Source: an uncultured Flavobacterium sp. (GTDB taxonomy: Bacteria > Bacteroidota > Bacteroidia > Flavobacteriales > Flavobacteriaceae). From it: DNA of 39,308 nucleotides. Positions within the stretch are counted from its first letter, which is position 1; the number at the start of each line of letters is the position of its first letter. The stretch covers positions 1-39,308 of the forward strand of contig NZ_CAMLMK010000014.1 in NCBI RefSeq assembly GCF_946481155.1. Direction: 5' to 3'. The notes under the pieces were generated by a model that ran no database searches, was not told where the DNA came from, and worked only from the letters and a program-made list of their open reading frames with translations. Positions 1 through 1,951 of the stretch are shown here, piece by piece. The position numbers were made by a program, and so were the translations under genes.

Positions 1-177
1 ATCAGCCAAATTGGAAATAAACATAGTTGCATTTAATTTTAAATTCGGTTCATTTGCAGTACTTGAATTTTTGAACGTCTTTAATACACCGGTAAGAGCG
101 CAGAACAATGAAAAAATCATATATATTCCAATTAGTATCGCAATTGTAATCAATGATGATTTGAAAAATTTTTTCAT
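1..177 (-). CDS. Small membrane-anchored protein, N-terminal part only (cut by window edge)
   Basis: An open minus-strand frame starts at an ATG at 177 and runs 59 codons without a stop to the window edge. It begins MKKFFKSSLITIAILIGIYM, a positively charged start followed by a hydrophobic stretch to about residue 32, so it is a signal anchor or signal peptide with the rest outside the cytoplasm. The family is not recognisable from this piece. The start codon lies 37 bases beyond the end of the boundary element at 214-340, the same geometry as the next gene in the array. I infer that it is the third gene of a cassette-like series. No promoter of its own is obvious. Confidence 0.6.
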   Translation of the reverse strand, partial: MKKFFKSSLITIAILIGIYMIFSLFCALTGVLKTFKNSSTANEPNLKLNATMFISNLAD

Positions 178-213
178 TTTTAATTGTAGATTATGTTTTT
201 GGCTATATCGCCC

Positions 214-340
214 AATGTTCCGTCGGCTTTAAGCAGGAGGGAACTTTTAGTACTCAATTTTCGGTTAACACCAAAGTCAAATATAAAAAAGAAGATTCAG
301 TTAAGCTTTAAACTCTTGCTTAAAACCGCTGTTAGTAGCC
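214..340 (-). repeat. Cassette boundary element 1 (hairpin-ended intergenic repeat)
   Basis: A 127-bp element between two minus-strand genes. Read on the plus strand it opens AATGTTCCGTCGGC and closes ACCGCTGTTAGTAGCC. Both ends closely match those of element 2 at 755-885. Its inner arms, 224-236 and 316-328, are inverted repeats (11 of 13 positions pair). The arm sequence differs from that of element 2, yet pairing is kept. The centre also resembles element 2 (an AGTAC-containing stretch). The upstream gene stops 10 bases before it and the downstream gene starts 37 bases after it. Confidence 0.65.
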
Positions 341-350
341 GTTTTTAGTT

Positions 351-725
351 TTAATCAAATTGCCACCATTTCTTTTTTTTCTTTATATCAAATACCTTTT
401 GAATAGCGTTGTAAAAAGAGTAAATAGAATCTTCTAACCCGTTTTTAAATTGCTTTTCGACTTTTGTTAAAGGAAATATCTTATTTTCATCATCAAAAGC
501 TATTGCCATTTCGTCATCATGGTTTACCCATTGACCACCAAAATTTTTTATAATACATTCTCCAAGAAATGCCGAACAAGAATTTATTAAACCTTTTAAT
601 TCTTCTTCCGTCATTTCTATTTTAACTCGCTCGATAAAACCTTCTAAATATTTTACACTTTCAGCATTGTATTTTAGGCTTAGTTGTGTTTTTACGGTTT
701 CCGCTAAGTTTTTAATATCGTCCAA
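351..725 (-). CDS. Small soluble protein of unknown function (cassette gene)
   Basis: A 124-residue protein with no signal peptide or membrane segment. It has a lysine-rich tail (KKKKKWW near the C-terminus) and a central FLGECIIKNFGGQW stretch at about residues 53-66, followed by an acidic loop. I have the impression of a small Bacteroidetes family with a G-FLGE-I--G--W pattern but cannot name it. The best start is TTG at 725: no in-frame ATG lies between the upstream boundary element and this codon. Its stop is exactly 10 bases from element 1, and its start 30 bases from element 2, which supports one gene per cassette. Confidence 0.6.
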   Translation of the reverse strand: MDDIKNLAETVKTQLSLKYNAESVKYLEGFIERVKIEMTEEELKGLINSCSAFLGECIIKNFGGQWVNHDDEMAIAFDDENKIFPLTKVEKQFKNGLEDSIYSFYNAIQKVFDIKKKKKWWQFD

Positions 726-754
726 ATTACGTTTTGTTTTTTTATAATTACTGT

Positions 755-885
755 AATGTCCCGCCGGCTTGGCGATGTTGCGGCTAATTTAGCGAAAAGT
801 TTCTGAGTACGATGAAGGTTGTTTTTTTCAAAAACTTCCAAATACACACCAAAACCAGCAATATCGCCAAACCGTTGTTATAGGC
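755..885 (-). repeat. Cassette boundary element 2 (hairpin-ended intergenic repeat)
   Basis: A 131-bp element, same orientation as element 1. Plus-strand ends are AATGTCCCGCCGGC and ACCGTTGTTATAGGC. Arms at 765-781 and 858-874 are inverted repeats, with 15 of 17 positions complementary, so one strand can fold into a long hairpin with a loop of about 75 bases. Read on the minus strand it starts GCCTATAACAACGG, loosely reminiscent of an integron attC core but not a match to the RYYYAAC consensus. Confidence 0.7.
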
Positions 886-895
886 AGTCTTTTAA

Positions 896-1573
896 TTAAT
901 AGTCAATGAACTCTCCATTAAATATAACCTCAAACTTAAAAATGATTTTTAAGATAATATATGTTATTACTAGAGTGCTTATAACTACTATATGCATTTT
1001 AAGTTTATAGTTTTTATTGTTATATGTGTAAGTAGGATATGTTTTTCGAGTTAATGCAAAAACACTAATTAAAATCTGTGGAACGAATAATAATCCTAAT
1101 GAAAGTATTGTATTTTTTCTGTTTGTTTCTGCCTTATTATAATCAAGATAATCTTTGCCATTTTTTGAAAAAGAATGTATTGAATTTTCAAACCTAGAAA
1201 TTGAAATAGTATCCTTTGAGGCTATTTCTGAATCGAAATCTCTTTTTTTTAGATAATTGTAATCTACACCATCTATTTCGTATTTATTATTATCATTCAA
1301 AAAAGTCACTTCAACAAGATAAGAAGTGTTTTTACCATGCCTATCAACTTTGAAAAAGTAATGGTCTAAAATTTTATCTTCTCGTATGAATTCAGATTCT
1401 TTTATTTTTGTTTTATATCCGGGCCATATTAGAAAAGCAAATGTTATTAAAACTGATATAAAAAGACCTGTGCCGAATTGTTTTTTAATTCGAATCCATT
1501 CTGTATCGGTTAGATTATTTGTCATATTGGTTAATTCTGTGTCAAGATTGCCTATCACTTCAAATATATTCAA
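896..1573 (-). CDS. Hypothetical membrane protein with about three TM segments (cassette gene)
   Basis: A 225-residue protein. A hydrophobic segment lies at about residues 34-52 (GLFISVLITFAFLIWPG), then a hydrophilic domain of about 100 residues rich in Lys, Asp and Tyr, then two more hydrophobic segments at about 156-174 and 193-213. The soluble loop resembles DUF3592-type membrane proteins only in general layout; no family is claimed. It is very AT-rich like the other genes of this left block. The stop codon is 10 bases before boundary element 2. Upstream (to the right) there is no further boundary element but the tRNA-derived repeats, so this would be the first gene of the array. Confidence 0.6.
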   Translation of the reverse strand: MNIFEVIGNLDTELTNMTNNLTDTEWIRIKKQFGTGLFISVLITFAFLIWPGYKTKIKESEFIREDKILDHYFFKVDRHGKNTSYLVEVTFLNDNNKYEIDGVDYNYLKKRDFDSEIASKDTISISRFENSIHSFSKNGKDYLDYNKAETNRKNTILSLGLLFVPQILISVFALTRKTYPTYTYNNKNYKLKMHIVVISTLVITYIILKIIFKFEVIFNGEFIDY

Positions 1574-1880: not shown

Positions 1881-1951
1881 AGGCATCGAGCGGATTCGAA
1901 CCGCTGTAGACGGTTTTGCAGACCGCTGCCTAGCCACTCGGCCACGATGCC
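1881..1951 (-). tRNA. tRNA-Cys (GCA anticodon)
   Basis: A 71-nt cloverleaf on the minus strand. The acceptor stem GGCATCG pairs with CGATGCC and the discriminator is U. The anticodon stem GCGGT/ACCGT (one G-U pair) closes the loop CTGCAAA, so the anticodon is GCA. The T-arm is GCGGTTCGAATCCGC. CCA is not encoded. It has its own terminator. It sits exactly at the junction between the accessory left block and the housekeeping genes, as expected of a tRNA used as an integration site. Confidence 0.95.

Follow-up and report, generated by a model that had tools for sequence, protein, structure and literature searches.

An integrase-less and probably decayed cassette array in Flavobacterium points to an integron-type system of the Bacteroidota

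Integrons carry one-gene cassettes arranged on one strand, with AAC/GTT cores and a crossover at G|TT in sites that act as bottom-strand hairpins, and with an attI site beside the recombinase. The attC sites are known for a folding bias towards the bottom strand, and the R'' half of the site at the 3′ end of a cassette pairs with the first bases of that same cassette. Xer enzymes, by comparison, resolve dimers at fixed double-stranded sites. Here we analyze a stretch of 39,308 nucleotides from an uncultured Flavobacterium sp. of the family Flavobacteriaceae (assembly GCF_946481155.1, contig NZ_CAMLMK010000014.1, positions 1 to 39,308, forward strand), called the window below. Its left end holds about 2.3 cassettes with attC-like sites, as delimited by open reading frames (ORFs) and site coordinates, which lie to the left of an adjoining tRNA-Cys gene (1881–1951, minus strand). 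We consider positions 1–1557 to be the first part of an integrase-less array that belongs to a Bacteroidota-wide integron-type system and is probably decayed, and we give this reading a probability of roughly 0.9.

Few integrons are reported in Bacteroidetes. The IntegronFinder 2.0 paper (PMC9024848) names one newly found complete integron of this group, in Salinibacter, and the Natural History of Integrons (PMC8618304) counts Bacteroidota among the phyla with integrons. No description of a system such as the present one was found in the PMC literature on integrons and Bacteroidota, a search outside which bioRxiv and most subscription papers fall, so that priority is uncertain.

The array is entirely on the minus strand. 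Cassette 1 (757–1557, 801 bp, with bounds set by complementarity and core positions) consists of a gene and its own site: the ORF occupies 896–1525 with an ATG start and shows hydrophobic stretches by eye, and the attC-like site E2 (747–889) is made up of an R'' box with AAC at 877–879, a stem formed by 765–781 and 858–874, and a core ATT at 755–757. The start of the cassette, GTG|ATAGGCAATC (1546–1558), places the crossover between 1558 and 1557. Cassette 2 (216–756, 541 bp, bounded by core positions) carries an ORF with a TTG start at 351–725 and the site E1 (205–343), with AAC at 331–333, a stem formed by 224–236 and 316–328, and a core ATT at 214–216. Cassette 3 is truncated by the window end, and only its start (1–215) is present, as judged from the core position and from a partial ORF (<1–177, ATG at 177). 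E1 and E2 have the outer ends AAGCCGRCGGRACATT and TAACARCGGTTT in common, of which the window holds no further exact copy. The first-pass annotation, made from the letters alone, had placed two hairpin elements with conserved ends here, between three minus-strand genes; the elements, their strand and the flanking genes are where it put them, and the inner arms that it called self-complementary pair as described.

To find related elements we used two covariance models. The first, R1, was built from the two window elements only; at a threshold of E ≤ 0.01 it has matches, often several per contig, in 218 of 397 family genomes. The second, R2, was built from 53 diverse elements of other genomes with the window elements left out. 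It recovers E1 with 75.1 bits (E 4e-13) and E2 with 71.9 bits (E 2e-12), the third match in the window having an E-value of 0.13; these E-values are rough, as the calibration was short. Since a model built without the window scores both elements highly, they are not a product of chance. At the glnS loci of 80 relatives (1.53 Mb) R2 has no match at E ≤ 0.1 and R1 none at E < 0.06. The elements therefore belong to the family described by R2, and the array does not belong to the common locus; a fixed gene order in all related genomes, which the annotation had named as evidence against cassettes, is not what is seen, as none of the 80 loci carries an element. Of the 26 relatives checked, 24 have a tRNA-Cys gene near glnS, in one of them on the opposite strand. 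The window has the look of Flavobacterium chromosomal DNA, the GlnRS encoded in it being 90% identical to those of F. celericrescens and others.

At the level of the phylum, R2 finds sites at E ≤ 1e-4 in 148 of 296 genomes sampled from Bacteroidota, a sample that was not picked for strong sites; it has no match in the short non-Bacteroidota loci L001 and L212. Selection is a weakness in other parts of the comparison and has to be set against our reading: the 26 genomes searched with the TIGR02249 profile (below) and the first 20 array regions were picked for strong sites.

The alignment of the 53 elements has an invariant AAC near the 5′ end and an invariant CGTT near the 3′ end. RNAalifold predicts 16 stem pairs in it, 15 of which show two-sided compensatory changes, which indicates conservation of the pairing and not of the sequence, as the annotation had proposed from the two window copies. 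One column pair of the stem is A.C in 50 of the 53 elements, and in both window elements the equivalent position, identified by hand, is occupied by A opposite C. The 3′ end of the relatives is mostly CCGTTR or ACGTTR, that of the window elements ACATTR. An exact pattern with both window ends had no match in genome contigs and one chance match in a GC-rich phage; it missed the relatives because these have CGTT, not CATT. BLAST of E1 against plasmids returned two chance matches only.

Sites of this type form arrays in other genomes. The 20 fetched regions contain 217 sites by R2, on one strand within each region and with a median spacing of 0.65–2.6 kb. Around recombinases, 20 further regions gave 106 reported sites; the 105 that were analyzed, after one site of L168 (E 0.009) had been dropped, are again on one strand per locus. 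AAC and CGTT are both present in 207 of the 217 and in 99 of the 105 sites. Eight arrays from the genus add 95 sites, on one strand each; among pattern-matched sites, E1 is 71–73% identical to one in five of these eight arrays, and E2 reaches 68% at best. Draft contigs, among them those of G033, G269, G355 and G140, often end right after the recombinase or within arrays. Near-identical sites may explain such assembly breaks, and arrays may consequently be undercounted in draft genomes.

The end-pairing rule of integron cassettes is followed closely in these arrays. For 215 neighboring site pairs, the fractions of cassettes whose first bases pair with their own R'' are 0.96, 0.93, 0.93, 0.89, 0.94, 0.91, and 0.73 at positions 1–7, fall to 0.03 at position 8, and return to 0.88, 0.87, and 0.83 thereafter. 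At least five of the first six positions pair in 196 of 215 own-cassette comparisons, against 16 of 311 when a site's own two ends are compared and 237 of 3465 for other combinations. At the mismatched position 8 the top strand has mostly C.A (47 of 49), corresponding to G.T on the bottom strand. The analysis of ORFs and folding took 255 cassettes and 266 rebuilt sites out of the 322 sites. In 230 of the 255 cassettes there is a sense ORF of 50 residues or more; the sense ORF is longer than the antisense ORF in 225, with a median coverage of 90%; it stops a median of 13 nt before AAC and starts a median of 30 nt past the boundary, distances with which the window genes agree. Folding energies computed with DNA parameters favor the bottom strand in 253 of the 266 rebuilt sites (mean −27.4 versus −23.5 kcal/mol). 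By comparison with these arrays, cassette 1 of the window keeps the end pairing: its R'' box (GACTGCCTAT|AAC, 877–889) pairs with GTG|ATAGGCAATC (1558–1546) at every one of 10 positions except position 8. This start is the only one of 39,295 window positions to score at least 9, while 11 positions score at least 8, including a GTT at 985 inside the gene of cassette 1.

Whole cassettes also appear to have moved between genomes. When 271 cassettes were compared, 14 inter-genome matches covered at least 60% of a cassette, and six rows, that is three pairs, were shared exactly from core to core with 92–96% identity; the remainder either lacked an annotated neighboring site or matched over a shorter stretch. 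L174_2 (G312) and L162_10 (G119) are 96% identical across all 968 bp, and L172_5 (G165) is 92% identical over 734 bp to L129_8 and L165_10, both of G261. The homology begins and ends at G|TT, and the flanking blocks are 0.50–0.56 identical, random 300-mers having a median of 0.51 and a maximum of 0.57. As far as alignments can tell, this core-to-core sharing is the trace to be expected if cassettes are transferred with a crossover at the integron position. Compensatory stems, one-strand arrays, own-end complementarity and core-to-core sharing together back the cassette reading that the annotation had put forward. G261 itself has near-identical cassettes at two places, L129 and L165.

The state of the window array is a separate matter. 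Its crossover cores are ATT, ATT and GTG, where relatives have GTT. The annotation had denied a match between the sites and the attC core; this does not hold for the relatives, which match it with AAC and GTT, and the window copies keep AAC and have ATT in place of GTT. The same change in both sites, the intact stems and AAC boxes, and the ends of cassette 1, paired but for the conserved mismatch, would all suit a functional ATT-core variant served by its own recombinase. Against such a variant, no true CATT core occurs in the 322 sites read (three apparent ones in L176 are misplaced anchors). In the 199 genomes of the genus, the GTT form AAGCCGNNGRRACGTT has 206 matches, in 29 genomes and with up to 67 per genome, versus 7 for the reversed control, whereas the ATT form has 30 matches in 29 genomes versus 50 for its control (totals summed by hand from tables); the ATT form is not enriched and thus not an established variant in the genus. 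Furthermore, the third boundary is GTG, and the ends of cassette 2 do not pair: its start matches its own R'' at 2 of 10 positions, the best other position within 1.7 kb upstream reaching 7 of 10. The rebuilt window sites have no clear strand bias in folding. A functional variant is accordingly unlikely, and the altered cores, the unpaired ends of cassette 2 and the missing strand bias make decay the likeliest explanation: the window array is probably decayed or immobile. No attI-like sequence was seen by eye before cassette 1, where T instead of A stands at −4 (see below). The array resembles a CALIN, that is a cluster of attC sites without an integrase, in having sites and genes with no recombinase seen in the window, and differs from it in that the sites are of the Bacteroidota type; the likeness concerns the DNA to the right of the left edge of the window. 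That the window contains no integrase had already been noticed by the annotation; tblastn queries with an array recombinase and with IntI1 bear this out, the best E-value being 3.5.

In relatives, the arrays are usually accompanied by a tyrosine recombinase distinct from canonical IntI, in line with the annotation's suggestion of a different structure-recognizing recombination system of flavobacteria. The TIGR02249 (integron integrase) profile matches all 26 genomes searched and 14 of 14 controls, none of them over the cut-off. The best match is at most 3.5 kb from a site in 19 of the 26 genomes, as counted by hand. In G033, G269, and G355 the recombinase lies about 1 kb or less from the end of its contig; the other exceptions are G036, whose C2 match is near sites, G219 and G381, whose best matches are Xer-like, and G288. 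In 18 of 20 loci the recombinase is upstream of the array and points the same way; in G007 and G402 it is divergent. All seven array recombinases examined against the profile score 189–215 bits versus a cut-off of 265, with the match in two stretches; between these stretches, one array recombinase has 21 residues (289–311) and IntI4 has 64 (182–247). A motif search placed recombinases in 19 of 21 adjacent loci (L120 and L180 unmatched). In all 19, the K-to-H spacing is 64–65 residues, against 106 in IntI1, and the segment from KGxKDR to HxLRH is shortened by about 42 residues relative to IntI1. Judged from these alignments, the array recombinases are without the IntI-specific insertion, the I2 region. 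In a tree with two Xer rows as outgroup, the IntI rows are on a long branch.

Two observations concern recombinases elsewhere. G165 has two equal-scoring copies of a recombinase without the N-terminal domain described below (C1:2189958 and 3113060) and a third recombinase. The closest plasmid recombinase found, with 36% identity, is that of L213 on the Chryseobacterium oryzae plasmid NZ_CP094530.1. Next come a gene of the VOC family and a transposase of the IS91 family. As R2 detects no site on this plasmid, the recombinase may be a mobile or divergent form.

The first cassette of the arrays starts at a GTT with a score of at least 8 of 10 in 15 of 20 loci, and 5 have no such start. Fourteen of the 15 starts are located 50–138 bp from the recombinase domain, and we identify the GTT beside that domain, by position and comparison, as the attI site. 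Fifteen attI sequences (L162 left out, L167 included with a boundary score of 7) have an upstream inverted-repeat content of 6.4 versus 4.5 when shuffled, the maximum of 300 shuffle means being 5.2, and the −4 base is A in all 15.

Many of the recombinases carry an additional N-terminal domain, for which a HARP/XPB-DRD-like fold is predicted, in 16 of 21 array-adjacent loci; the VIA-align comparison behind this assignment covers only the families that it listed. The array recombinases of L135 and L140, with 580–590 residues, apparently have three successive copies of it. The domain is present in 54 of the 296 phylum genomes, and sites occur in 53 of these 54 as against 95 of the 242 without it (Fisher p 2.5e-17); at the threshold used, 95 of the 148 site-bearing genomes have no such domain. 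Of 64 listed places of the domain, 55 were compared with the sites among the matches listed. Thirty of these share a contig with a listed site and 21 are within 20 kb of one, with the site downstream and on the same strand in 21 of 21.

Could these be ordinary integrons, with a canonical IntI and divergent attC sites that existing software has missed? The system shares with integrons, especially the sedentary chromosomal ones, one-gene cassettes on one strand, AAC/GTT cores, the G|TT crossover, imperfect hairpins with bottom-strand bias, the end pairing and cassette logic, an attI beside the recombinase and many similar sites per genome; TIGR02249 is moreover the best NCBIfam family for two of the seven recombinases and the second for the other five. 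It differs in the recombinase, where the sub-threshold scores and the shortened segment argue against a canonical IntI, in the HARP/DRD-like domain, in the codirectional upstream position of the recombinase, and in the stem, where A.C mismatches (G.T as seen from the other strand) are conserved and where no extrahelical base is consistently unpaired in the alignment. The IntI-specific domain is counted as a defining characteristic of integrons in PMC9668308, a paper on integrons of Archaea. A classification of tyrosine recombinases (PMC8138268) describes the insertion as not fully conserved in its integron-like subgroup, yet essential for integron function. On balance, ordinary integrons are a quite improbable explanation. 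The system also differs from XerA, XerH and other simple tyrosine recombinases, as its recombinases are sited at cassette arrays with folded sites. Readings of the elements as intergenic tandem terminators, structured or small RNAs, or miniature transposons, suggested by hairpins in AT-rich intergenic DNA just past stop codons that are repeated in genomes, were dropped as highly implausible, since the elements have no Rfam match and such readings accommodate neither the own-end complementarity across a gene nor the homology breaks at the cores, unless these two features arose as artefacts from the choice of loci.

For the integron-type system that we favor, the following mechanism may be envisaged. 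Each unit consists of one gene with a site of about 130 nt after it. It would be excised as a circle, with its own two ends joining to rebuild the site, and the site, presumably as a single strand and preferably the bottom one, would fold into a long imperfect hairpin. A tyrosine recombinase would recognize this hairpin by its shape, and recombination at G|TT would insert the circle at the attI beside the recombinase gene or at another site. A broader proposal is that the system represents a second great integron branch, that of the Bacteroidota, capturing folded sites without the I2 helix, and that in many members the HARP/DRD-like domain, of a fork-binding type, recognizes the folded site; such a branch could be an independent invention or an ancestral state preceding I2. 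We put this forward tentatively, with doubt slightly outweighing confidence.

The proteins encoded by the window array are, by their sporadic occurrence, accessory. The cassette 1 protein has no significant Pfam family (best E 0.009, under the cut-off), and the cassette 2 protein has a DUF3806-like Pfam match that is likewise under the cut-off (E 0.026). Homologues of the former occur in 3 of 199 genomes of the genus, at four places, one of which, L217 (45% identity), sits between two R2 sites. Homologues of the latter occur in 2 of 299 genomes of the family, at three places: L215 and L216, both of G165, are between R2 sites, and the copy in G226 has no site nearby. Taken together, three of the seven places are inside arrays and four are without a nearby site. 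Between the tRNA-Cys gene and the array, the segment 1697–1831 contains two decayed copies of the T-arm region of tRNA-Cys, CAGATTCGAACCGCA at 1705 and 1798, to be compared with CGGATTCGAACCGCT at 1891. The copies are about 93 bp apart, with TTTACCTAATTTTT after each, and are possibly scars of integrations at the 3′ end of the tRNA gene.

Integrons are thought to owe their single-strand recombination to the I2 helix. According to a paper on integrase evolution (PMC7790495), no other protein has been found to contain this helix, and its causal role lacks direct proof. A natural cassette system without the I2 helix would make this causal question testable. With sites in half of the sampled genomes of the phylum, the system would, if active, constitute a large unrecognized route of gene exchange in the Bacteroidota.
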